From: Flavobacteriales bacterium
Lineage (GTDB): Bacteria > Bacteroidota > Bacteroidia > Flavobacteriales_C > GCA-002722245
Reading direction: 5' to 3'
Length of the DNA stretch: 64,000 bases
NCBI GenBank assembly: GCA_023251075.1
Contig: JAHEZM010000001.1
Coordinates: 1-64,000, forward strand
Both the position numbers and the translations under genes were made by a program. Positions 12,104 through 63,334 of the stretch are shown piece by piece (the stretch's first letter is position 1; each line of letters starts with the position of its first letter). Under the pieces are notes generated by a model, which was given only the letters and a program-made list of their open reading frames with translations, was not told the DNA's origin and did no database searches.

Positions 12104-13060
12104 TTAAAATCGCTTGGTATAGCTATGACAATAGGGTGTTTTACCGCTTTTTTCATAGTAATCTTGATGGTAATCTTCTGCCGGATAAAATACGGTTGCC
12201 TTTGTTACTTTAGTAGCAATTTTCAATCCTTTTTTTTCCAGAATTGAAATCAATTCTTCAGCAATATTCTTTTGTAGTTCTGAATTATAGAAAATTTCAG
12301 ATCGGTATTGATTTCCTAAATCCGGACCTTGTCCGTCGATTTGTTCAGGATCATGAATTTCAAAAAAGTTTTGGGCTAAAGTTTTGTAATCTACCTGAGA
12401 ACTATCAAAAACTACTCTAACTGCTTCGGCATGTCCTGTTCTTCCTGTACATATTTCTCTGTAACCGGGGTTTTTCACAAAACCTCCCGTGTAGCCAGAT
12501 TCCACAGAGATCACTCCTTTGTTTTGATTCAACAAATGTTCAACTCCCCAAAAACAACCTCCGGCAAAAATAGCGGTGTCAAATTTATTCATCTTAGCAT
12601 TTGAATTATTTTGTGGTACAAATGATAGTGAAACGGAATTTACACAGTGTCGGGTATCTTTATCGGTGAAGCCTTCTCCTCTAAACACATGCCCTAGATG
12701 TCCTCCACATTTTGCACAAGTAATTTCTGTCCTTCTTCCATCGAAATCGGTTGTTTCTTTAACTGCTCCCGGTATGGCATCATCAAAGCTCGGCCATCCA
12801 CAACCACTGTCGAATTTATCGCCCGATTCAAATAATTGAGCATTACATCTTCTGCAAACATATATTCCAGAATCTTTATGTTTATAATACATGCCTGAGA
12901 ACGGCGCTTCAGTACCCTTGTTAATGATTACTCTTTCTTCTTCAGCACTTAGTTCATTAAAGGTTTTGTTTTCTTCTGTCATAACGGTATTTTTTTGTGC
13001 ACAACTTTGAATAAAAATCAAAGTTAATAAGCTAAAAATTAACACTCTGTACTTTTCCAT
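12104..13060 (-). CDS. Lipoprotein MsrB-MsrA fusion (bifunctional methionine sulfoxide reductase)
   Basis: This 318-residue protein has a lipoprotein signal (FIQSC, lipidated C20) followed by MsrB (about 35-150) and MsrA (about 158-318). MsrB keeps its four zinc cysteines C69, C72, C115 and C118 and the catalytic cysteine C139 in RHCVNS, reducing methionine-R-sulfoxide. MsrA has the catalytic GGCFWG (C169), YTGG, GHAEAV and DPEQIDGQGPDLGNQYRS for the S form. The order is B then A, opposite to PilB-type MsrA-MsrB fusions. Lipidation puts the enzyme in the cell envelope, where it would repair oxidised outer or periplasmic proteins. No thioredoxin-like reductant domain is fused, so an external electron donor is needed. 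Confidence 0.95.
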   Translation of the reverse strand: MEKYRVLIFSLLTLIFIQSCAQKNTVMTEENKTFNELSAEEERVIINKGTEAPFSGMYYKHKDSGIYVCRRCNAQLFESGDKFDSGCGWPSFDDAIPGAVKETTDFDGRRTEITCAKCGGHLGHVFRGEGFTDKDTRHCVNSVSLSFVPQNNSNAKMNKFDTAIFAGGCFWGVEHLLNQNKGVISVESGYTGGFVKNPGYREICTGRTGHAEAVRVVFDSSQVDYKTLAQNFFEIHDPEQIDGQGPDLGNQYRSEIFYNSELQKNIAEELISILEKKGLKIATKVTKATVFYPAEDYHQDYYEKSGKTPYCHSYTKRF

Positions 13061-38725: not shown

Positions 38726-39838
38726 ATGAATCAAATTACAACATCAAAATGGCTGAGTTTATCAGCAACAGGAGTTTTATCAGTGGCTTTGCTATTCAGC
38801 TCATGTAAAAAAGACGAACCCACAAATACAGATGATGATACCAATAAGTTTAGCTATACAGTTCCTACCACTTACAACTATTCTAATGTAAAACACGACG
38901 ATGAAGTAACCTTAATCAACATGTTTGTAGAGTTAGAGACAGAGATGAAGAAGGGGGCTACAGGAACGGTTTTGAGTTCTAGTAAACTACAAGATATGTT
39001 TGCCAATGTAAATAGTCCGTTTGTTAGTTCTCTTTTGAATGCAGCAAGTGTGGACATTAAAAGCTCAAGTATTCTATCTGCTCGTTTAGATATTGAAGCG
39101 TATTTAGACAGCCTTGCTTCTTATAGTAATTCCGTTTCACCTGCATCTAACGGTGTTGCCGGAATTGGAGTAAGTACGGTAGATGCTACAAAAAAATATT
39201 TATTGTCGCCTAAAGGATTTAACTATCAGCAATTTGTTAGTAAAACTTTGATGGGAGCTTTAATTACGCATCAAATTACTGAATTACTTTCCGCCTCAGC
39301 CGATAATACAACTGTGGTTAGCGAAGAAGGAACAGAGATGGAGCACAACTGGGACAGAGCCTTTGGTATTTTTTATGCACCTATTGATTTTCCTACCACT
39401 TTAACCGGTTTGAAATATTGGAGTAGCTATTGTAATCAGGTAAATACAATAGGATCTAATAAAATTGTAATGGATGCTTTCTTAAAAGGCCGTGTTGCTA
39501 TTAGCAATGGTGATATTGCCACTAAAAATATACAAGCAGCTATTATTATTGAAGAGTTTGAAAAAATGACTGCAGCGGCTGCCATTCATGAGTTACAAGA
39601 AGCCAGAGAAGATTTAACCAATACACCTAAAGTAAATACGAACGTTTCTGAATCGATTGCTTTTTTATTGTCACTGAAATACAACACTCATAAAACGCAT
39701 ATTACCAACGCTCAAATTGATACTATTGTGGCATTGTATGGTGATAATTTATATGAATTAACTACCGATAAATTAAATAGTGTTGTTAGTGCTATAAGTG
39801 CTATTTATGGTTGGGACAGTATTAAGGATGCTATTTAG
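38726..39838 (+). CDS. DUF4856 domain lipoprotein
   Basis: This 370-residue lipoprotein (LLFSSCKKD, lipidated C27) matches DUF4856: TVPTTYNYSNVKHDDEV, YLLSPKGFNYQQFVSKTLMGAL, HNWDRAFGIFY, YWSSYCNQVNT and the helical C-terminus with AAAIHELQEA. It is mostly helical after residue 40. The family occurs almost only in Bacteroidota and sits beside imelysin and TonB receptor genes, as here (24-base gap to imelysin), suggesting iron or metal handling on the cell surface; this is inference from context. Confidence 0.88.
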   Translation: MNQITTSKWLSLSATGVLSVALLFSSCKKDEPTNTDDDTNKFSYTVPTTYNYSNVKHDDEVTLINMFVELETEMKKGATGTVLSSSKLQDMFANVNSPFVSSLLNAASVDIKSSSILSARLDIEAYLDSLASYSNSVSPASNGVAGIGVSTVDATKKYLLSPKGFNYQQFVSKTLMGALITHQITELLSASADNTTVVSEEGTEMEHNWDRAFGIFYAPIDFPTTLTGLKYWSSYCNQVNTIGSNKIVMDAFLKGRVAISNGDIATKNIQAAIIIEEFEKMTAAAAIHELQEAREDLTNTPKVNTNVSESIAFLLSLKYNTHKTHITNAQIDTIVALYGDNLYELTTDKLNSVVSAISAIYGWDSIKDAI

Positions 39839-39862
39839 TTTTTAAAATATAAGAAGCCATAA

Positions 39863-40948
39863 ATGAAAAAAGTTAGTTTGATATTATTCTCTATTCTGGT
39901 TGTTTTTGCTTGTCACCACAAACCCAAACCTTCAGATGAAAAGAATTTTGATTTGAAAGGAATGTTGAATAATATAGGAACCAATATTATTGTTCCAAGT
40001 TATACAGCATTGCAAAATGGTGTAAATGATTTAAGCGTAGCTACAGATACTTTTGTAAACAATCCAAATGTTCTGAATTTACAAGATTTACGAAATAAGT
40101 TTAAACAAGCATATCTCCACTGGCAATCTTGTGATATTTTTGAATTTGGACCAGCTACCAACGTTTCTTTAAGAGCTAACTTAAATGTTTATCCTACGGA
40201 TACCACTAAAATTCAAAACAATATTCAAACTGCTTTTTTCAATGTTGATTATTTAAGTAATTCTACGGCTAAAGGATTTCCGGCCATTGATTATTTATTG
40301 TACTACGATAATAAAACTGACGGTGAAGTTGTTGCTTATTATCTTACAGCATCAACTGCTACTAATAGAAAACAATATTTACAGGCACTGGTTTTATCTA
40401 TTAAAACAAAAGTAGATAACGTTGTTTTGGCGTGGAATACTTACCTCTCTACGTTTATCAATAGCAATGGATATAGTTTAGGTAGTTCTGCCAGCCTTTT
40501 GTTAAATGCTATGAATGAGTATTTCGAAAGATATTTACGCGATGGAAAAATTGCAATTCCGGTAGGCATAAAATCTTTGGGAGTGGCTTTACCTGAACAA
40601 ACGGAAGCATACTACGGAAAATTTTCAGCCGAATTGTTAAATCAATCGATTCAATCTTTTCAAAATTTGTACTTGGGAAAATATGGAAATACTGATGGTT
40701 TAGGATTTGATGATCATTTGGTAGCATTCGATGCCTCGGCCACCAATGAGACTTTAAAAAATAATATTGCAGATGCAGTTTCTGCTTGTTATTCATTGGG
40801 TGATCCTTTGTCGCAAACCATTATAAGCAACCAAAGTTCCGTTGAATCAGTGTATACTAAATTGCAGAAGGTAGTTCTTCCTTTAAAATCAGATATGCCA
40901 TCAGCTTTAGGAATACTGCTTACTTATCAAGATAACGATGGAGATTAA
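39863..40948 (+). CDS. Imelysin-family (M75) lipoprotein
   Basis: This 361-residue helical lipoprotein (VVFACHH, lipidated C17) has the imelysin layout: FKQAYLHWQSCDIFEFGPA in the first half, NVYPTDTTKI, and KGFPAIDYLLY at the position of the GxHxxE motif. The classical histidine and glutamate are replaced (GFPAID), as in many Bacteroidota members, so peptidase activity is unlikely. Imelysins such as IrpA are iron-regulated and bind metal. The gene ends 3 bases before the GTG start of a TonB receptor. Confidence 0.88.
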   Translation: MKKVSLILFSILVVFACHHKPKPSDEKNFDLKGMLNNIGTNIIVPSYTALQNGVNDLSVATDTFVNNPNVLNLQDLRNKFKQAYLHWQSCDIFEFGPATNVSLRANLNVYPTDTTKIQNNIQTAFFNVDYLSNSTAKGFPAIDYLLYYDNKTDGEVVAYYLTASTATNRKQYLQALVLSIKTKVDNVVLAWNTYLSTFINSNGYSLGSSASLLLNAMNEYFERYLRDGKIAIPVGIKSLGVALPEQTEAYYGKFSAELLNQSIQSFQNLYLGKYGNTDGLGFDDHLVAFDASATNETLKNNIADAVSACYSLGDPLSQTIISNQSSVESVYTKLQKVVLPLKSDMPSALGILLTYQDNDGD

Positions 40949-40951
40949 TCA

Positions 40952-43375
40952 GTGAATACAGTTTTTAAATATCTCCTTCTTTGCTCATTGCATTTCATGC
41001 CAAACTTAGTTTTGGCATTTAATGTTTCAGGCATAGTGAGTGCGGCTGATAGTTCTGTACTATTGGATGGAGCTCAGGTATTGGTTCTTGAAAATGGCAA
41101 ATTCACTTACACTAACTCTAAAGGTGAATTTATTATTGATGGATTGAAAACAGGGAATTATCATTTAATGGCAATGTTTGAAACCAAGGAATCGCAAACG
41201 ATTCCTTTTTCTGTTCTCGACACCAATGTGATTATTAATTTCCAATTATTTCCGCTTACACAAGCTATGGATACGGTTAGAGTTGAAGGTAAGCGAAGTT
41301 TTAGTATAGGAAAATTGAAAGAAGTAGAAGGCACCGCTATTTATTCGGGAAAAAAAACAGAGACGATAGATATGAATAATACATCGGGAAATAAGGCGAC
41401 TAATAATGCCCGACAAGTTTATTCGAAAATAGCGGGTTTAAATATTTGGGAAAGTGACGGTGCAGGTATTCAGCTAAGCATTGGCGGTAGAGGATTGAAT
41501 CCTAACAGAGTTTCTAATTTCAATACCCGACAAAATGGTTACGATATTAGTGCTGATGCTTTGGGGTATCCAGAGAGTTATTACAGTCCGCCCACTGAAG
41601 CCATCGACAGAATAGAAATTGTAAGAGGGGCTGCATCACTGCAATATGGAACTCAGTTTGGTGGTTTCTTAAATTTTAAATTGAAGAAAGGTCCGGAGAA
41701 AAGAAAATTTGAATTTACTTCCCGACAAACCTTAGGTTCCTGGGGATTTATCAATTCGTTCAACAGTGTGGGAGGAACAGTGGCAAAAGGAAAATTAAAC
41801 TATTATGCTTTTGTTCAGCGCAAACAAGGAAATGGGTGGAGGCCCAATTCTGAATTTAATGTGAATTCAGCGTATGCTTCTGTTTATTATAGTTTAAGTA
41901 AGAAGTGGAATATTGGAGTAGAATATACTTTTATGGATTATTTGGCCCATCAGCCTGGAGGATTAACCGATGCGATGTTCAATAAAGATCCAATGCAGTC
42001 TATAAGAGCTAGAAATTGGTTTAAAGTAAATTGGAATTTGATAGCCTTACAAAGTAATTATGTTTTTACGGATCGTTCTCGTTTAAATTTCAGAGCCTTT
42101 GGTTTGTTGGCGGGCAGAGATGCTTTAGGAATATTAGATCAAATTACCCGGGCTGATGAAGGAAAAGAAAGAAATTTATTAAGTGATGATTTTAAAAATA
42201 TAGGTGCTGAAATGCGCTTTCTTCAATATTACAAATTAGGAAAAAATTTATCGGTATTTCTTGTGGGAGGAAGATACTATCGCGGATTCACACAACGAAA
42301 TCAAGGATTTGGAGATAGTACTTCTTCTGCTAATTTTTCTTTTGCAAATTCCGATCAACCAGAAAATTCTAAATACAGTTTTCCTAGTCAGAATGTATCT
42401 TTTTTTATTGAAAATATTTTCAAAATAACACCTAAGTTTTCTGTTACACCTGGTATTCGTTATGAATTTATTGATACCAGATCGGATGGGTATTATAATG
42501 TAGAAAATAAAAATTTAGCCGGACAAGTAATTTATAAAGCACAGTTTCAGGACAGCCGAGAAAACAAACGAGCCTTTTTATTAGGTGGAGTAGGAATGAG
42601 CTATCAACACAGTACTTTATTTGAAGCTTACGCCAATTTTTCTCAAAATTATCGCTCTATTAATTTTAATGATATGAGAGTGGTGAATCCTAATTTTCAA
42701 GTCGATCCTAATTTAAAAGATGAAACAGGATACACTGCTGATGCAGGGTTTAGAGGTTTTTTAAAAAGTATTTTGTACTACGATGTTACTTTCTTTTACT
42801 TGGGATACAACAACAGAATCGGTTCTGTTATTAAAACCGACACCATCACCTATACTGCGTATTTGTTGCGCACCAATATTTCCGACTCCCGTACTTTCGG
42901 TTTTGAAAGTTTAGTGGAATTAGATTTTTACAAGTGGTTGATTGGTGGAAATAAAGACATGAAGATTTCGGTTTACAGTAATCTATCGATGATGCAAGCG
43001 GAATATTTAGGAAGTAAACAAAAAGCTTTTGAAGGAAAAAAAGTAGAGTTGGTTCCGCCTATGATGTGGAAAACCGGATTGCGTTTTAAATACAAAGGTT
43101 TTGTGGCCTCCACTCAATATTCATATACCGCTCAGCAATACACCGATGCAACCAATGCTGCATATACTGCCAATGCGGTAAACGGAATCATTCCTAGTTA
43201 TTCCATCATGGATTTTAGTACTTCTTATACCTATAAAAAAATAAGTGTGGAAGGCAGTATCAATAATTTGCTGGATGCACGTTATTTCACTAGAAGAGCT
43301 GAATCATATCCTGGCCCGGGAATTATTCCATCTGATGCAAGAAGTTTTTATCTTACCCTTCAAATTAAACTTTGA
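40952..43375 (+). CDS. TonB-dependent outer-membrane receptor (FecA-like)
   Basis: This 807-residue receptor starts with GTG at 40952; the signal peptide ends near VLAFN. Residues ~25-110 form a carboxypeptidase-regulatory-like domain, then a plug (NARQVYSKIAGLNIWESDG, EAIDRIEIVRGAASLQYG), then a 22-strand barrel. It ends in a beta signal, YLTLQIKL. In an operon with DUF4856 and imelysin lipoproteins, it probably imports an iron chelate. The stop abuts the stop of the convergent gene with no base between them. Confidence 0.93.
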   Translation: MNTVFKYLLLCSLHFMPNLVLAFNVSGIVSAADSSVLLDGAQVLVLENGKFTYTNSKGEFIIDGLKTGNYHLMAMFETKESQTIPFSVLDTNVIINFQLFPLTQAMDTVRVEGKRSFSIGKLKEVEGTAIYSGKKTETIDMNNTSGNKATNNARQVYSKIAGLNIWESDGAGIQLSIGGRGLNPNRVSNFNTRQNGYDISADALGYPESYYSPPTEAIDRIEIVRGAASLQYGTQFGGFLNFKLKKGPEKRKFEFTSRQTLGSWGFINSFNSVGGTVAKGKLNYYAFVQRKQGNGWRPNSEFNVNSAYASVYYSLSKKWNIGVEYTFMDYLAHQPGGLTDAMFNKDPMQSIRARNWFKVNWNLIALQSNYVFTDRSRLNFRAFGLLAGRDALGILDQITRADEGKERNLLSDDFKNIGAEMRFLQYYKLGKNLSVFLVGGRYYRGFTQRNQGFGDSTSSANFSFANSDQPENSKYSFPSQNVSFFIENIFKITPKFSVTPGIRYEFIDTRSDGYYNVENKNLAGQVIYKAQFQDSRENKRAFLLGGVGMSYQHSTLFEAYANFSQNYRSINFNDMRVVNPNFQVDPNLKDETGYTADAGFRGFLKSILYYDVTFFYLGYNNRIGSVIKTDTITYTAYLLRTNISDSRTFGFESLVELDFYKWLIGGNKDMKISVYSNLSMMQAEYLGSKQKAFEGKKVELVPPMMWKTGLRFKYKGFVASTQYSYTAQQYTDATNAAYTANAVNGIIPSYSIMDFSTSYTYKKISVEGSINNLLDARYFTRRAESYPGPGIIPSDARSFYLTLQIKL

Positions 43376-50801: not shown

Positions 50802-52051
50802 AGATTTTAATTTGGATAGCGCGAATTGTAGTAGGTGTTTTATTCACTCTTTCAGGTTTAATTAAAGCCAATGATCCTATTGGATTTTCTTACAAATTAG
50901 AAGAGTATTTTGAAGTGTTCGCCAATAAAGCTCAATTTTATTTAGATACTCATGGATCGTGGTTTCCTGATTGGTTATTGGAATTGGCTGTTTGGAAATT
51001 CCATTTACTGCATGATATAGCTTTGCCTTTTGCTACTATTTTGGTAGTTCTGGAAATAGTATTGGGAATTTGTATTCTAACAGGTACAAAAATGAAATGG
51101 GTAAGTAGCATCGCTCTTGTTCTGATTTTATTCTTCACCTTTCTAACCTTTATTTCATGGAACTATAATTTGGTGAGAAGTTGCGGTTGCTTTGGCGATG
51201 CGATTAAAATTACACCCGATCAATCTTTTTATAAAGATCTTATTCTTTTATTTTTTATCCTTTTACTCTTTATCTACAGAAGATCTATCAATTCTCTTTT
51301 CGAACAAACGGGCGATAGAGTAGTACTGGGCGTTTCAATTTTATGTTCTTTGCTTTTGGTGGTTTACACTTATCGTCATTTACCTATCATCGATTTTAGA
51401 CCCTATGCGGTGGGTGAAAATATTAAAGAGAATATGATCAGAGTAGAAGGTAAAAAGAAGTTTTATTATACTCTCAAAAATTTAAAAACAGGTGAAGAAC
51501 AAGAGTTTTCTGAATATCCAAAGGATGTGAAAAACTGGAAATACATCAGTATTCGAATTGAAAAAATTACTCCGGGAATTGATCCGAAAATTGAAGCGTT
51601 TACCATTTTTGACGATGATGGTAATGATTTGTTACCTCAAATACTGGAAGATAGCGCTTATACTTTTATGCTGATTTCTTATGATTTAGAACAATTAGGA
51701 GAATTTGAAAAGGAAGGAAAGGTAGCAGTAGGATTTAAACCTACAGAAAAAACCAAATCACAGTTTGAAGTGTTGAATGCCTTTGCTAAGGAAGCAGATA
51801 AGGAAGGAATGAAATTTATGGTGCTTACGGCTTCTGGTATAGATTATATTGGATCATTTCGTCATCAAATGCAAACTGAATATCCCTTTTATGGGTGCGA
51901 TGGAACGGTACTCAAAACAATAATTCGTGCCAATCCGGGCTTGGTTTTAATGAAAAATGGTGAAGTACTCGGACAGTGGCATATTAACGATTTCCCCGAT
52001 TTCGAGGATTTAATGGAGGATTTAAATATTAATTATTCTAAAGATTTATGA
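50798..52051 (+). CDS. BT_3928-family protein: DoxX-like membrane domain with C-terminal soluble domain
   Basis: This 417-residue protein has an N-terminal DoxX/MauE-like domain with at least four helices (ARIVVGVLFTLSGLIKANDPIGFSYKLEEY start) and RSCGCFG after helix 4, then a soluble C-terminal region (about 210-417) with a thioredoxin-like part (FMVLTASG, ANPGLVLMKNGEVLGQWHINDFP). The family is conserved beside tpiA in Bacteroidota; proposed redox role is inference. It overlaps DUF1599 and tpiA by 4 bases each. Confidence 0.9.
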   Translation: MKILIWIARIVVGVLFTLSGLIKANDPIGFSYKLEEYFEVFANKAQFYLDTHGSWFPDWLLELAVWKFHLLHDIALPFATILVVLEIVLGICILTGTKMKWVSSIALVLILFFTFLTFISWNYNLVRSCGCFGDAIKITPDQSFYKDLILLFFILLLFIYRRSINSLFEQTGDRVVLGVSILCSLLLVVYTYRHLPIIDFRPYAVGENIKENMIRVEGKKKFYYTLKNLKTGEEQEFSEYPKDVKNWKYISIRIEKITPGIDPKIEAFTIFDDDGNDLLPQILEDSAYTFMLISYDLEQLGEFEKEGKVAVGFKPTEKTKSQFEVLNAFAKEADKEGMKFMVLTASGIDYIGSFRHQMQTEYPFYGCDGTVLKTIIRANPGLVLMKNGEVLGQWHINDFPDFEDLMEDLNINYSKDL

Positions 52052-52809
52052 GAAGAAAAATCGTAGCAGGTAACTGGAAAATGAACAAAACTGTAAGCGA
52101 AGGCTTAAGTTTAATTGAAGCTATTAAAGCGAATGTAGCTAAAGTACAAGGCGCAGGAGTAGATGTAATCGTATCTCCTCCTTATGTAATGTTAAGTGAA
52201 GCAGCCAAAGCTCTTCAGGGCAGCAGCGTTAAATTATCGGCACAAAATTGTCACCAAGAAGAAAGTGGTGCTTATACCGGTGAAATATCGGCAACTATGA
52301 TCAAAGCGATTGGTGCTGAGTATATCATTATCGGACATAGTGAACGTCGTCAGTATTTCAATGAAACCAGTGCATCTATTGCTAAAAAAGTGAGTGTTGT
52401 TTTATCCAAAGGATTAACTCCAATATATTGCAATGGTGAAGTGAAGGAAGAGAGAGAAGCAGGTAAACATTTTGAAGTGGTTCAAAGACAAATGGAGCAA
52501 GAGCTTTTTCATTTAAGCGCTGAAGAAGTTAAAAAAGTAGTAATTGCTTATGAACCTGTTTGGGCAATAGGTACAGGCTTAACAGCTTCTCCTGATCAGG
52601 CGCAGGAAATTCACGCATTTATAAGAAAACAACTAAGCAATAAATATGGAGCTGATGTGGCTGAAAGCATTAGTATTTTGTATGGTGGTAGCTGTAAGCC
52701 TGATAATGCGAAAGAAATATTCAGTAAAAAAGATGTGGATGGTGGTTTAATTGGTGGAGCTGCATTAAAAGCAGAAGATTTCTTGGCTATCGTTAACGGA
52801 TTTAATTAA
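52048..52809 (+). CDS. tpiA: Triosephosphate isomerase
   Basis: This 253-residue glycolytic enzyme interconverts dihydroxyacetone phosphate and glyceraldehyde 3-phosphate. Catalytic residues: lysine in GNWKMNK, histidine in IIGHSERR, glutamate in VIAYEPVWAIGTG. The phosphate loop LYGGS and late GLIGGAALK are intact. It overlaps the BT_3928-like gene by 4 bases and ends in a strong terminator. Confidence 0.98.
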   Translation: MRRKIVAGNWKMNKTVSEGLSLIEAIKANVAKVQGAGVDVIVSPPYVMLSEAAKALQGSSVKLSAQNCHQEESGAYTGEISATMIKAIGAEYIIIGHSERRQYFNETSASIAKKVSVVLSKGLTPIYCNGEVKEEREAGKHFEVVQRQMEQELFHLSAEEVKKVVIAYEPVWAIGTGLTASPDQAQEIHAFIRKQLSNKYGADVAESISILYGGSCKPDNAKEIFSKKDVDGGLIGGAALKAEDFLAIVNGFN

Positions 52810-52863: not shown

Positions 52864-52884
52864 ATTACTAAACTATAGGTTTTG
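52853..52884 (+). promoter_or_regulatory. Candidate prmA promoter overlapping the tpiA terminator and the TTG start
   Basis: TTTG (52853-52856), N19, TAGGTTTTG (52876-52884) matches the Bacteroidota promoter apart from one extra T in the -7 box. The -7 box covers the proposed prmA TTG start (52882), so one of the two assignments may be off. Confidence 0.35.
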
Positions 52885-53748
52885 AGTAAAACTTACATCG
52901 AATTAAAAGTTCAGGTTAGTCCGGTTGATCCATGGGCTGAAATTTTTATTGCAGCCCTCGCTGATGCAGGCTACGATAGTTTTGAAGAAACGCCTAAGGG
53001 ATTTAATGCCTTTATTGAAAAAGATCAATATCAAAAAGGTGTTGTTGAAGATTTTGTTCAACAACATCAAAATGAAGTAAAGATTTCTTTTGTTGCGGAT
53101 GACTTGCCCGATACCAACTGGAACGCCAATTGGGAGAGTTCTTTTTCTCCTATTGAAATTGGTGAATGGTGTGTGGTGCGCGCTCCTTTTCACATCTTGC
53201 ATAAGAAATACCAACATGAAATTATTATTGAACCCAAAATGTCGTTTGGAACCGGTCATCATAAAACTACATACCTGGTAATGCAGGAAATGAAAAATAT
53301 AGATTGGCATAACAAAAGGGTTTTAGATATGGGAAGTGGAACGGGGATTTTAGCCATTCTTGCTGAAAAGTTGAAGGCCAAGGAAATGGTGGCGATAGAT
53401 ATTGATGAGTGGGCTTACGAAAACTGCGTAGAAAATCTCGAAAAAAATAGCTGTTCAAAAATAGAAGTTTTAAAGGGTGATGCATCGTTAATCGATAACA
53501 AAGGATTCGATATTGTGCTGGCTAATATCAATCGTAATATTTTGTTAGAGGATATGGAAAAATATACTAAAGCCATGTTGCCTGGAGGAATATTGATTAT
53601 GAGTGGTTTTCTTCTGCAAGATGTGGAAGTGTTAAAAGAAAAAATAGCATCTCTTGGCTTATTGTTTGATAAAGTAGTAACTTCAGGAGATGATAATTCG
53701 TCGGAGAATTTCTCTGGCAATTGGGCGCTAATTAAATGTTTTAAATAA
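52882..53748 (+). CDS. prmA: Ribosomal protein L11 methyltransferase
   Basis: This 288-residue SAM-dependent enzyme trimethylates L11. The N-terminal substrate domain (YIELKVQVSP...) precedes the Rossmann domain with MSFGTGHHKTT, LDMGSGTGILAI, DIDEWAYENCVEN and LANINRNIL. TTG at 52882 is the only start giving the expected SKTYIEL N-terminus; no ATG is available. A terminator separates it from tpiA. The large exported protein gene starts 9 bases after its stop. Confidence 0.93.
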   Translation: MSKTYIELKVQVSPVDPWAEIFIAALADAGYDSFEETPKGFNAFIEKDQYQKGVVEDFVQQHQNEVKISFVADDLPDTNWNANWESSFSPIEIGEWCVVRAPFHILHKKYQHEIIIEPKMSFGTGHHKTTYLVMQEMKNIDWHNKRVLDMGSGTGILAILAEKLKAKEMVAIDIDEWAYENCVENLEKNSCSKIEVLKGDASLIDNKGFDIVLANINRNILLEDMEKYTKAMLPGGILIMSGFLLQDVEVLKEKIASLGLLFDKVVTSGDDNSSENFSGNWALIKCFK

Positions 53749-53757
53749 ATCTGCTAC

Positions 53758-56700
53758 ATGAGAAAAATACTTTTCATTTTATTTTTCATTGCTTTTTCCT
53801 TTGTAAATGCACAAGTTACCATTAAGGAATTCTCCAGTGATCCCGATAAGTTTTTTGAGGAAATACATGGATTTATTACTACTGCTATTCCTGATGGAGG
53901 AGAAGAGTTGATGATGGAATTTGAGGCGGCCTGGAATACCAAACCTATGGACCCTAAAAAGGAAGAGAAGTTTTATAAAACAGTAAATGAAATTTTTCAA
54001 AAGAGATTAAAAAAATTGGGAATAGAAAATTCCTTCGTGTATTCTGCAGCCACCAGAAAATTCAATTTAGATCAGAAAGATGATATTTCAATCATGTGTA
54101 ATCTCATGTTGCAAAGAAGATTGAAAGCACTTCCCGATTTTCAAAACTACCTTACTTCTTTGTTAGGATTTATTGTTACCGACCAATCGGAAATGAGCTT
54201 TTCAGCATGGAATGCAACATTAACCAAATTGATGAAGGGTAACTTAAGAGGATTTACTTCCTTCATGAGTACCACCAACAATTTATTTTTATATGGTTCT
54301 ATCTATGTTTCTAATGGAGTAAGATGGACGGGAACTTCTAAGAACTATACTTTCGATTACGATAGTTTGCCCAAGATTGTTTTTTCTGATAAAATGACCT
54401 TGTATTGTGTTGCCAAACGCGATACTTCTTTTATTTATGAAACCAAAGGTACTTTTTATCCTTCCACTCAAATGTTTATGGGAACAGGTGGAACAGTAAC
54501 CTGGGAAAGAGTAGGAGTATCGAGAAAAGTATCTTATGCTTTATTGAATAAATACAGTATCAACATGAGATTCTCTAAATATAGTGCCGATTCGGTTACC
54601 TTCTTTCATTCAAAATATTTCGATCATGCATTAAAAGGTAGAGTGATGGAACAGATTCAGGCCGATGTTGATTCAAGCAGCGCCAGTTTCCCGTCATTTA
54701 TTTCATATAGTAAAAAAGAAAGAATTAAAGAGATTTCTAAAAACGTTGATTTCGAAGGCGGATTCTCTATTAAAGGCGCTCGGTTTATTGCTCAGGGTAC
54801 TTCAGAAGAACGTGCTAAACTTACCTTCAAATATCAGGGGAAACCTACAATGGAATTAATGGCCGAAAGGTTTTCTATTACTGATAGTACTATGGTTTCT
54901 GCTGATGCGGCAGTAATCATTCGTTTGAAAGATGATTCTATTTATCATCCTACCTTACAATTTAAATATGTGAAATCGGTAAATTTAATTACACTGTATC
55001 GTGATAAAAAAGGTTTGTCGAGATCTCCTTATTACGATACCTACCACGATGTGGATATTGATGTAGAATGGTTGCGATGGAGAGTAGATACTCCTGCTAT
55101 GGTAATGAGTGCTATTATTGGATCATCAACGCATGAAATGGATTTAGAGTCTTCACTTTTCTATGATGAAGGAAGATTTATTGCTTTGCAAGGCTTAAAT
55201 GATGTGCATCCTTTATATCAAATTAAAAAGTACATCGATAGCAGAAACAATAAGAAAAGAACTTTCTTTCTCGATGATTTTGTGAGTTACATGCACCAGG
55301 ATGAAAACGACGTTAAAATTCTATTGATTCATCTGGCCAACTACGGTTTCCTGAATTATGATATTCCTAAAGGAGAGATTACGGTTAAAGAAAGATTGTT
55401 CCATTACCTATATTCAAAATCGAAGAAAGAAGATTATGATAATATCTCTATTCACTCAGATATTGAAAGTAAACCCAATGCCACACTTTTTATTACCGAT
55501 AGCTGTGATATGATTGTTCGCGGCGTAAGAAAGGTAATGTTGAGTGAAGGAAGAAAAGTGTATTTCCAACCTATGGAAGGAGAAATTGTGTTGCACAAAA
55601 ATCGCGACATGACTTTTGGTGGTGCCATCAAATCGGGGATGACAGAGTTTTTTGGAAAACAGTTTGAATTTAAATACGATGATTTTAAAATAGAAATCAT
55701 TAACGCCGATTCAATGCGGGTTTTTGCTCCTACATTAAATCAGGAAAGACCCGATTCGGTAATGATGATGCGTGTTAGTAATACCATTGAGAAATTGTAT
55801 GGAAGAATATTGATCGATAAACCTTTCAATAAATCAGGAATAAGAATCGATTCTTTTCCTCAATACCCCATTTTCATTAGTGATTCTACTTCAAAAGTAT
55901 TTTTCGATAAACGGAATGCTTTAAATAATCCTAAATCTAAAATTCCCGCCTATCCCAAAGATAAAGTGTATTTCACTGTTGAACCATTTTCTTTGGATAG
56001 TATGAATACACTCGATAGAAACAGCGTGGCCTTTGATGGTAGTTTTACATCGGGGGGGATTTTTCCTGTGTTTAAGGAAAAACTTAAAATTATGCCCGAT
56101 CACTCTTTAGGTTTTCATCACCCCGCCCCCAAAGAAGGAGTGCCGGTGTATGGAGGAAAAGCTACTTATTTCATGGAGATTAATGTGAGTAATAAAGGTA
56201 TTCGTGGTAACGGTAAATTAGATTATATCACATCAACCACTTACTCAGAAGATTTTATATTTTATGTCGATTCTGTAAATGCGATTGCTAAAACATACGA
56301 AGTCAAAGAAAGAAAAGAAGCGGTGGAATACCCATCGGCAAAAGGGGAAAATTTAAAATTCCATTTCGAACCCTATAACGATAAATTATGGGCTAGTGTA
56401 ATCGATAAACCTATTGAGATGTATGGCTCTCAGGCCAAGTTGGATGGTACAATGATTTATGGTACACAAAAAATGGGGGGCTACGGAAAAGTTGATTTTG
56501 AAAATGCAGAATTAACATCGCGAGATTTCGATTTTCAAAACAGAAAATTTAAGGCCGATACTTCCGATTTTAAATTAAAAGCTGCTGATCCTGCAGAAGG
56601 TTCCATTGCTTTTGCTACTAAAAATGTAAAATCGATTATCGATTTCGATAAAAGGGAAGGTGATTTTATAGCCAATGGTGGAGCATCATTCGTTGACTTT

Positions 56701-58368
56701 CCTGTGAATCAATATGTGTGTTACATGGATCAGTTCAAATGGTTTATGGATAAATTTGAATTGGAATTAAGTACCAGTTCTGGTCAGGCTAAAACTGCCG
56801 ATGGTGCTGCCGGAGCGAGTGATCTCGATTTGTCGGGATCGGAATTTATTTCTACTCACCCTAAACAAGATTCACTGAAATTCATTTCACCCAAGGCAAA
56901 TTTCGATATTAAAAACTACATCATTAAAGCACATGAAGTTAAATATTTGAATGTGGCCGATGCCAGAATTTATCCTGGAGATGGTGAAGTGGTGGTAGAA
57001 AAAGCAGCCAAAATGAAAGCTTTTGAAAAAGCGAAAATTGTGGCGAATAGTTTAACCGAGTACCACACCATTTTGGATGCTCACGTGGATGTTTATGCCA
57101 AAAAAGATTATAAAGCAGAAGGTGATTATGAGTATGTAGATGCCGAAGGTGGTCGCCAGAAATTACACTTTAGCAATATTCGTGTAGATACTACTTACCA
57201 AACTATTGCCAGTGGTGACATTGCCGAATCACAATTGTTTAAACTGAGTCCGCAGTTCATGTATAAAGGAAGAGCAAGTATTGCAGCTAATAAAAAAGGA
57301 ATTTTCTTTGATGGTGGTACCAAACTGGTTCACGAATGTAAACAAGCAAAACCATGGATTAGCTTTGAAGCAGATATCGATCCTGCCAATGTGATGATTC
57401 CTGTAGATACTATTACTAAAATATTTGGTGATCCGAACGGAAGGTTGTTTAATGGTTTAAATGTTACCAACGATTCTACTGGTATTTACACTTCTTTAAT
57501 GGCGCCCAAAAGAAGTTTTACGGATGATATAATTATTGGAGGTAAAGGTTTTTTGGTGTATGATTCAGAAGCGAGTGAATACAGAATTTCAAATAAAGAG
57601 AAATTGCGGGAGAAAAATTATCCGGGAACTTATGTGGCAATGAACACGCAAACTTGTGCGGTGGAAACGGAAGGTAAAATGAATTTGACTTTCAAAACCG
57701 GACAAATGAAAGTGAATATTGCAGGGCATGGTGAATTGGATCCTGCTGTAGATACTGCGAAATTTGATGTGGTGATGACGCTCGATTTCTTGTTGGATGA
57801 CGGTATGTGGAAACACATTATGAACAACCTGGAAGGTAATCCAAACTTAGGTGCAGTGAACAATAATCGTCCGGCTTACGAACGTGCTCTTCGTGATTTA
57901 GTAGGAAAAGAGAAAGGTGATAAATTGGTTTCTGATATTGCTTTATACGGACAATTCAAACGTTTTCCTGATGAGTTAAAACACAATTTTGTAATCAATC
58001 ATTTGAACTTGTATTGGGATAAAGACAAAAATGCCTTCGTTTCTAAAGGCTTAATTGGTATTGGTTCTATGGACAATCATCAGATCAATAAATATGTAGA
58101 AGGTTATGTAATGATTGAAAGGAAAAAAACGAAAGAAGAAGTGTATTTGTACTTGAAAATTGATGATAAAACATGGTACTACTTTAACTATTCTACAGGA
58201 ATCATGTCGGTACTTTCTTCCCACGAAGATTTCAATGCTATTGTAAATTCCTTGAAGCCCGATAAAAAAGAGTTGAAAGGTGGTAGAGATGAAGATCCTT
58301 ATTCTTTCATGTTGGCCGTAGAAAGAAAAATGAAAATGTTTATCATGAAAATGGAGGGCGGGGAGTAG
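53758..58368 (+). CDS. Giant exported protein (1536 residues) of unknown function, beta-rich
   Basis: This protein has a signal peptide (MRKILFILFFIAFSFVNA). Residues ~20-190 are helical. From ~190 to ~1400 the sequence is beta-strand-rich, with short recurring motifs such as DFEGGFSIKGARF, GKLDYITSTTYSEDF, GYGKVDFENAELTSRDF and DKREGDFIANGG, resembling open beta-sheet periplasmic proteins (LptA/OstA-like or AsmA-like beta-taco folds); this resemblance is a guess. The C-terminus (~1400-1536) has a short mixed domain. No transmembrane segment, lipobox, sorting domain or enzyme motif is seen. It follows prmA by 9 bases and precedes ligA. A periplasmic lipid-transport or outer-membrane scaffold role is possible but unproven. 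Confidence 0.85.
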   Translation: MRKILFILFFIAFSFVNAQVTIKEFSSDPDKFFEEIHGFITTAIPDGGEELMMEFEAAWNTKPMDPKKEEKFYKTVNEIFQKRLKKLGIENSFVYSAATRKFNLDQKDDISIMCNLMLQRRLKALPDFQNYLTSLLGFIVTDQSEMSFSAWNATLTKLMKGNLRGFTSFMSTTNNLFLYGSIYVSNGVRWTGTSKNYTFDYDSLPKIVFSDKMTLYCVAKRDTSFIYETKGTFYPSTQMFMGTGGTVTWERVGVSRKVSYALLNKYSINMRFSKYSADSVTFFHSKYFDHALKGRVMEQIQADVDSSSASFPSFISYSKKERIKEISKNVDFEGGFSIKGARFIAQGTSEERAKLTFKYQGKPTMELMAERFSITDSTMVSADAAVIIRLKDDSIYHPTLQFKYVKSVNLITLYRDKKGLSRSPYYDTYHDVDIDVEWLRWRVDTPAMVMSAIIGSSTHEMDLESSLFYDEGRFIALQGLNDVHPLYQIKKYIDSRNNKKRTFFLDDFVSYMHQDENDVKILLIHLANYGFLNYDIPKGEITVKERLFHYLYSKSKKEDYDNISIHSDIESKPNATLFITDSCDMIVRGVRKVMLSEGRKVYFQPMEGEIVLHKNRDMTFGGAIKSGMTEFFGKQFEFKYDDFKIEIINADSMRVFAPTLNQERPDSVMMMRVSNTIEKLYGRILIDKPFNKSGIRIDSFPQYPIFISDSTSKVFFDKRNALNNPKSKIPAYPKDKVYFTVEPFSLDSMNTLDRNSVAFDGSFTSGGIFPVFKEKLKIMPDHSLGFHHPAPKEGVPVYGGKATYFMEINVSNKGIRGNGKLDYITSTTYSEDFIFYVDSVNAIAKTYEVKERKEAVEYPSAKGENLKFHFEPYNDKLWASVIDKPIEMYGSQAKLDGTMIYGTQKMGGYGKVDFENAELTSRDFDFQNRKFKADTSDFKLKAADPAEGSIAFATKNVKSIIDFDKREGDFIANGGASFVDFPVNQYVCYMDQFKWFMDKFELELSTSSGQAKTADGAAGASDLDLSGSEFISTHPKQDSLKFISPKANFDIKNYIIKAHEVKYLNVADARIYPGDGEVVVEKAAKMKAFEKAKIVANSLTEYHTILDAHVDVYAKKDYKAEGDYEYVDAEGGRQKLHFSNIRVDTTYQTIASGDIAESQLFKLSPQFMYKGRASIAANKKGIFFDGGTKLVHECKQAKPWISFEADIDPANVMIPVDTITKIFGDPNGRLFNGLNVTNDSTGIYTSLMAPKRSFTDDIIIGGKGFLVYDSEASEYRISNKEKLREKNYPGTYVAMNTQTCAVETEGKMNLTFKTGQMKVNIAGHGELDPAVDTAKFDVVMTLDFLLDDGMWKHIMNNLEGNPNLGAVNNNRPAYERALRDLVGKEKGDKLVSDIALYGQFKRFPDELKHNFVINHLNLYWDKDKNAFVSKGLIGIGSMDNHQINKYVEGYVMIERKKTKEEVYLYLKIDDKTWYYFNYSTGIMSVLSSHEDFNAIVNSLKPDKKELKGGRDEDPYSFMLAVERKMKMFIMKMEGGE

Positions 58369-61903: not shown

Positions 61904-63334
61904 GTGAAACGTTTACATCTCTTTATAATTAAAGCATTTATTGGTCCGTTCCTTCTGAATCTGATCATTACCGATTTCCTGTTTCTTATGATTTGGATGT
62001 GGAAGTATGTGGATGACTTGATTGGAAAGGGACTGGATTTATCGGTTATTCTGGAAATGATGTGGTATGCTGGCTTGTGGCATGTGCCCATGTGCTTACC
62101 CTTATCGATTCTACTCTCTTCTATCATGGCCTTTGGAAAACTAGGAGAAACCAACGAATTAACTTCATTGAAATCGTTAGGGATTTCATTACAGAAAACC
62201 ATGTTTTCATTGATAGTATTCAATTTTATGATGGCTGTTGCAGCTTTCTTTTTCAGTAATAATGTACTTCCGCTTACTGCCTTTAAAATGCATAGTTTAT
62301 TGAATGATATTGTTCAAAAGAAGCCGGAATTAAACATTCCTGAGGGAGTATTTTACAATGGTATGCAAGATTATACCATTCGGGTAGAGAAAAAATACAG
62401 CGATAAAACCATGAAAGGTATAACGCTTTACGATCATCATAACAATGAAAGCAATAGTTTTTTGGTAGCCGATTCAGGAAAGATTGAGAATATTTTAAAT
62501 GGAAAATACATGCGTTTCACTTTGTTTAATGGTGCAGCATATAAAGAGGACAGAGCCTTAAATAACCCTAATCCGAATGCCCCTCGATCGATGTTAAGAA
62601 GTACTTTTGCTGAACATGTAATATATATCGATATGTCGGCTTATGCTTTTCGCAACAACGAAAATTCTTTTGGCAGAAATTCCGCCCAAATGATGAATGT
62701 AGAACAGTTGGAATACTGTTTGGATTCTCTAAAAAAAGATATTCAACAGAGAAGAAATAATTTAAAAAATGAAATTAGTGATTACTATTATTTTATTCGG
62801 GATACTACTATGGTGGCAGATACGGTAAAACCAATGGTTGTAGCGGCCAATATTATAGGAATTTTACCTTCGGAAAAGAGAGCCATAATTCTACAAGATG
62901 CTGAGCAATCGGCACGTTCTGCTTTAGGGTATCCCGACAGGTCGGGAACCTACGAAGAAGAAAGTTTTAAGAATGAGAGTAAATACAAAATTGAGTGGCA
63001 TAAAAAATTCACCTTGTCGGTGGCTTGTTTCATCTTATTTTTCATTGGTGCACCTTTGGGAGCAATCGTTCGAAAAGGTGGTTTAGGGTGGCCTGTGGTA
63101 ATAGCAGTGCTTTTCTTTTTAGTGTATTATGTAATCTCTATCATCTTTGAAAAAACAGCTAAAAACAATGCTATTGAACCGTGGATAGGGATGTGGATGG
63201 CGTCAATGGTTTTAATGCCTGTGGGCGTGTTTTTAACTTATAAATCAACCAGAGATTCAAAATTATTCAGCATGGCTGTGTACAGAAATGGCTGGAATAA
63301 AGTAGTGACCTTCTTTAAAAAACAAGGATCATGA
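61904..63334 (+). CDS. LptF/LptG-family LPS export permease
   Basis: This 476-residue inner-membrane protein starts with GTG at 61904. It has membrane helices at about 11-31, 57-77 and 99-119, a periplasmic beta-jellyroll (about 130-330, including IPEGVFYNGMQDYTIRVEKK), and three C-terminal helices (about 374-445, LSVACFILFFIGAPLGAIVRKGG). LptF and LptG sit in the LptB2FGC complex that extracts LPS from the inner membrane. F and G cannot be distinguished. Its stop overlaps the start of a glycosyltransferase by 4 bases. Confidence 0.92.
   Translation: MKRLHLFIIKAFIGPFLLNLIITDFLFLMIWMWKYVDDLIGKGLDLSVILEMMWYAGLWHVPMCLPLSILLSSIMAFGKLGETNELTSLKSLGISLQKTMFSLIVFNFMMAVAAFFFSNNVLPLTAFKMHSLLNDIVQKKPELNIPEGVFYNGMQDYTIRVEKKYSDKTMKGITLYDHHNNESNSFLVADSGKIENILNGKYMRFTLFNGAAYKEDRALNNPNPNAPRSMLRSTFAEHVIYIDMSAYAFRNNENSFGRNSAQMMNVEQLEYCLDSLKKDIQQRRNNLKNEISDYYYFIRDTTMVADTVKPMVVAANIIGILPSEKRAIILQDAEQSARSALGYPDRSGTYEEESFKNESKYKIEWHKKFTLSVACFILFFIGAPLGAIVRKGGLGWPVVIAVLFFLVYYVISIIFEKTAKNNAIEPWIGMWMASMVLMPVGVFLTYKSTRDSKLFSMAVYRNGWNKVVTFFKKQGS

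Follow-up and report, generated by a model that had tools for sequence, protein, structure and literature searches.

The longest open reading frame of the window, i.e. of the whole 64,000-nucleotide stretch of DNA analysed here, runs on the forward strand from position 53758 to 58368. It starts with ATG, is intact and encodes 1536 amino acids, and the gene has a single copy in the whole 3.28-Mb genome, in line with an earlier interpretation made from the DNA letters (the sequence-only reading), which had described the largest gene of the window as single and intact. That it adjoins housekeeping genes also held: this giant gene lies between tpiA–prmA and ligA, with an M28 peptidase gene (opposite strand) and an LptF/LptG permease gene following further downstream. 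The features of the locus, including the predicted domains of the protein, are as follows.

52048–52809, + strand: tpiA, conserved upstream neighbour (Pfam TIM; synteny in 14 of 29 loci)
52882–53748, + strand: prmA, directly upstream, 9-base gap (Pfam PrmA; synteny in 19 of 29 loci)
53758–58368, + strand: whole giant gene, single copy, for a protein of 1536 aa (240 of the 296 relatives searched have it at full length)
53758–53814, + strand: predicted signal peptide, residues 1–19, ...VNA/Q (cut between A and Q), without lipobox (hydropathy 2.27 over 19 residues)
53821–54297, + strand: predicted N-terminal all-helical domain, residues 22–180 (AF2/DSSP helices, pLDDT mostly 76–91)
54298–54684, + strand: predicted first beta region, residues 181–309 (AF2 model)
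54685–55161, + strand: internal repeat 1, first part, residues ~310–468 (profile self-match to ~867–1142)
55165–55431, + strand: predicted winged-helix-like domain, helices 485–556, inserted in repeat 1 (Foldseek and profile matches)
55432–55737, + strand: internal repeat 1, second part, residues ~559–660 (profile self-match)
55738–56355, + strand: predicted central beta region, residues 661–866 (near-invariant NKSG, GIFP and SLGF..P..G.P.YGG motifs)
56356–57183, + strand: internal repeat 2, residues ~867–1142 (profile self-match; most conserved stretch)
57184–57777, + strand: predicted C-terminal beta region, residues 1143–1340 (AF2 model; ~1210–1275 poorly modelled)
57790–58218, + strand: predicted short helical stretch and terminal beta domain, residues 1345–1487 (AF2 model)
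61904–63334, + strand: permease LptF/LptG, part of the lipopolysaccharide exporter and 3.5 kb downstream (PF03739, E 4e-68; GTG start in the ORF list)

Elsewhere in the window, consecutive genes at positions 38726–43375 (+), for a DUF4856 protein, an imelysin (M75) and a TonB-dependent receptor, have by their Pfam matches the look of a metal-uptake operon, and positions 12104–13060 (−) encode a single protein in which SelR (MsrB) is fused to PMSR (MsrA), both methionine sulfoxide reductase domains, behind a likely lipoprotein signal.

Sequence features, spread and inheritance

The N-terminal hydrophobic segment of the giant protein is read as a predicted cleavable signal peptide, and the A–Q pair at residues 18–19 is conserved across relatives. 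There is no second membrane-type segment, hydropathy past the N-terminus reaching at most 1.08 over 19 residues, and no lipobox cysteine at the signal peptide, so that the earlier description of an exported protein without anchors stands. Searches of Pfam, NCBIfam and PDB sequences with the protein returned zero matches, and 27 of its relatives gave no match of substance to the same three collections. Nor did the sequence searches or Foldseek return an enzyme family or fold match of useful probability. Conservation nevertheless extends along its full length: across 45 sequences, 76 alignment columns are at least 95% conserved, and several His, Asp, Ser, Trp and Asn positions are near-invariant. 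Less well supported was the claim of short, recurring G-x-[FLV]-[DE]-[FY] patterns. Exact copies occur at only two places, residues 819 and 910, where shuffled sequences lead one to expect 0.30 (P ~0.04), and the motif was rejected as the repeat unit; the real repetition is a diverged internal duplication that is visible only by profile comparison (see below).

When the phylogenetic spread was checked, the giant gene was found in 52 of 60 relatives, a set that mostly takes one genome from each family of the class. A larger draw recovered it from 240 of 296 relatives, which represent 136 of the 166 genera, and nearly always as one full-length copy, whereas even draws from the phylum, which cover very different families, contained only 11 carriers among 296 genomes and 14 among 394. 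A profile built from 28 sequences recovered the 11 carriers of the single-sequence search and no others. As the profile adds none, presence of the gene is sharply yes or no, and search failure was rejected as the cause of its absence, the more so because the gap at the locus is closed in several non-carriers. MAGs under the names Flavobacteriales, Bacteroidales and Fluviicola sp. are among the named loci. A clear duplication of the gene was seen once, in genome G034 (L078), where two giant genes (about 1545 and 1549 aa) stand in tandem.

The order tpiA–prmA–giant gene is common to carriers of distant families and often continues with plsY (9/29) or clpS (4/29), while in several non-carriers tpiA–prmA–clpS, prmA–clpS or prmA–plsY are joined directly (L189, L191, L173–L175, L177, L178). 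From this shared locus and the joined flanks we infer that the gene is ancestral there, has been inherited vertically and was cleanly lost in several lineages. Within the class, the giant family is an old one.

Internal duplication and predicted architecture

Comparison of the family profile with itself matched residues ~310–650 to ~867–1142 (E 3e-6). Without residues 470–560 the self-match improved to E 3.5e-8 (probability 95, score 71.7), which marks the predicted winged-helix-like domain as an insert in the first repeat copy; controls scored at most 39.2 in 40 block-shuffled comparisons and 18 for the reversed profile. The diverged internal duplication is real.

AlphaFold2, run on shallow alignments of 13 sequences, produced two overlapping models, one of residues 1–1000 (pLDDT 76, pTM 0.54) and one of residues 560–1536 (pLDDT 75, pTM 0.49). 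The giant protein is strand-rich in both, as the sequence-only reading had it, and the combination of low pTM with high local pLDDT (about 90 over residues 760–930) fits an elongated protein. The predicted N-terminal helical domain is the least conserved domain, with a median identity of 31%. The inserted domain resembles MarR/ArsR-type domains in Foldseek (prob 0.9–1.0) and has weak profile matches to 1q1h/3jw4 (E 0.08–0.2) as well as weak Pfam matches in single members. Apart from this one small winged-helix-like insert, the models show no separate globular domains of known function, the outcome that had been named in advance as contrary to a bridge. The helical N-domain and the insert, like the LptF/LptG permease 3.5 kb downstream, had been overlooked at first.

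Predicted Lpt-like folds, Lpt genes and the proposed role

In Foldseek searches against the PDB, the jellyrolls of LptD, LptC, LptA and LptH lead the matches across both half-models. The model of residues 560–1536 matches LptD (E 1e-5, prob 0.97), LptC 6mit (prob 1.00, TM 0.59 on target, 3.2 Å over 174 columns), LptA 2r19 (prob 0.99, TM 0.62) and LptH 4uu4 (prob 1.00, TM 0.52), and that of residues 1–1000 has LptD as its top match and also matches LptC 6mit (prob 0.99, TM 0.48 on target), values to be read with the E of 0.05–0.2 for LptC/LptA, the rmsd above 25 Å of the LptD alignments and match positions that are not given. The likeness to Lpt jellyrolls is therefore a consistent lead at the level of predicted fold, not proof. 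At the level of sequence, 28 members of the giant family have no Lpt-family Pfam match, and hhalign comparison of the family with OstA-like, LptD_2 and TamB alignments gave scores of at most 23, against 22 for reversed controls. A positive control, OstA versus the LptD N-domain, scored 39 in the same comparison; homology of the giant protein to OstA/LptD thus went undetected although the kinship of OstA and LptD is detectable.

The genome itself encodes LptC, an OstA-like protein, two LptF/G, LptD_2 and TamB. The idea that the giant protein replaces a missing Lpt part was rejected on these grounds; with the Lpt set and TamB both present, it is an addition rather than a replacement. LptF/G, OstA-like, LptD and TamB genes occur in carriers and non-carriers alike, the presence of the giant gene follows no Lpt gene, and there is no conserved adjacency between them. 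Lpt genes nevertheless lie within 5 kb of the giant gene in 5 of 52 carrier genomes, where a simple Poisson estimate predicts ~0.7 (P ~0.006 with two same-genus cases counted once, a post hoc comparison). They are LptF/G in this window (G000) and in G032 and an OstA-like gene in G002 and G003, while in G046 (L082, G046:C24:18000-37000) Lpt genes flank the giant gene on both sides, the OstA-like, giant and LptD genes lying within ~13 kb.

Our preferred, though tentative, reading, to which we give somewhat less than an even chance, is that the giant protein is soluble in the periplasm and serves there, with its multiple jellyrolls, as a bridge or scaffold for a lipid. It would be exported via Sec to the periplasm and fold there into a long chain of LptA/LptC-like beta-jellyroll or beta-groove segments, arisen in part from the internal duplication that is to be expected of a repeat bridge. 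The helical N-terminal domain may serve in docking, with the predicted winged-helix-like domain inserted further along. The chain would shield a lipid (lipopolysaccharide, another glycolipid or phospholipid), its ends docking on inner- and outer-membrane partners, and would work like LptA but as one long chain beside the standard Lpt and TamB systems; the continuity of its groove, the docking, the transport of lipid and the substrate are what we infer from the predicted fold. The bridge proposed from sequence has thereby gained real support at the level of predicted fold, through the Lpt jellyroll matches of both half-models, and a signal peptide with no further anchor is what LptA has too, but the models are of moderate confidence and profile kinship with the Lpt or TamB families is lacking: no similarity to OstA/LptA-like, LptD or TamB profiles exceeds the reversed controls. 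Also speaking against a bridge, near-invariant polar and turn residues along the whole length exceed the needs of a plain lipid trough.

These conserved motifs, which span all 1500 residues (the 76 columns mentioned above), speak for the main rival: located in the periplasm or associated with the outer membrane, the protein would act as a scaffold for outer-membrane proteins or secretion machinery, or as a factor in their assembly, and its jellyroll-like domains would make protein contacts and hold no lipid. The helical N-domain and the winged-helix-like insert suit such contacts, and the protein has no sequence kinship to lipid-bridge families; yet it is the lipid-carrying Lpt jellyrolls, and not scaffold proteins, that match its predicted fold best, and we regard this reading as possible but doubtful. 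A role as an enzyme or polymer-binding protein of large beta architecture, at the cell surface or in the periplasm, would account for the near-invariance of several His, Asp, Ser, Trp and Asn residues but is improbable, given the want of any useful enzyme family or fold match and a single-copy gene that, unlike those of variable hydrolases, is inherited in place beside housekeeping genes. Least probable by our estimate, and very much so, is a divergent AsmA/TamB-type lipid transfer protein of the beta-taco kind: the giant protein is beta-rich and exported, its gene is an envelope gene of the same organisms and its length is similar (TamB open frames in these genomes have mostly about 1450–1700 codons), but it has no TamB (PF04357) or AsmA match in Pfam, a negative TamB profile comparison and no transmembrane anchor left after the signal peptide, TamB is encoded besides it in the same genomes, and AsmA/TamB structures are missing from the best 50 Foldseek matches of either model. 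Membership of the TamB family was rejected for want of a domain, profile or inner-membrane anchor match.

The lipid bridge also has a more far-reaching form, which we consider rather unlikely as a whole, namely an undescribed trans-envelope lipid bridge that is ancestral to the class, independent in sequence of Lpt and TamB, whose single soluble chain consists of duplicated giant jellyroll modules and which would have been overlooked because whole families dropped the gene.

Comparison with known envelope systems

The lipid route to the outer membrane has been worked out for lipopolysaccharide in Escherichia coli and much less in Bacteroidota, whose outer membranes differ from that of E. coli. 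A giant gene that is present in most sampled families of the class and has no Pfam or NCBIfam model leaves a large hole in the inventory of envelope components, and in its product a lipid bridge or envelope scaffold may have escaped notice. Since the gene was cleanly lost in some lineages and kept in related ones, its role is open to test through a comparison of close relatives and a single deletion in a cultured carrier. In the open-licence papers searched, no description of such a periplasmic bridge in Bacteroidota was found. Work on TamB/AsmA-like proteins in Flavobacterium johnsoniae sought further family members with an E. coli AsmA query (PMC12045153), which is unlikely to find the giant family.

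With LptA, LptC, the LptD N-domain and LptH, the giant protein shares the predicted fold match of both halves, export and, as far as the models suggest, a beta-jellyroll repeat, and it is presumably soluble as LptA is. Yet it is ~10 times as long as LptA and forms one chain where LptA forms an oligomer, and it differs from Lpt proteins in its predicted helical N-domain and winged-helix-like insert, in having no detectable sequence kinship and in standing beside a complete Lpt set. The OstA-like protein of Bacteroidota (PF13100, OstA_2, ~500–560 aa) is likewise exported, multi-repeat and found in the same organisms, and its gene lies 3–5 kb from the giant gene in three genomes; however, the profile comparison was negative, and OstA-like genes also occur in genomes without the giant gene. 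TamB/AsmA-like bridges resemble it in length (~1500 aa), beta-richness, envelope location and single copy in most genomes, but the giant protein has neither profile similarity to them nor an inner-membrane anchor, and it co-exists with TamB. By sequence, it thus belongs to neither the Lpt nor the TamB families, and its mode of action may nonetheless be that of an Lpt bridge.
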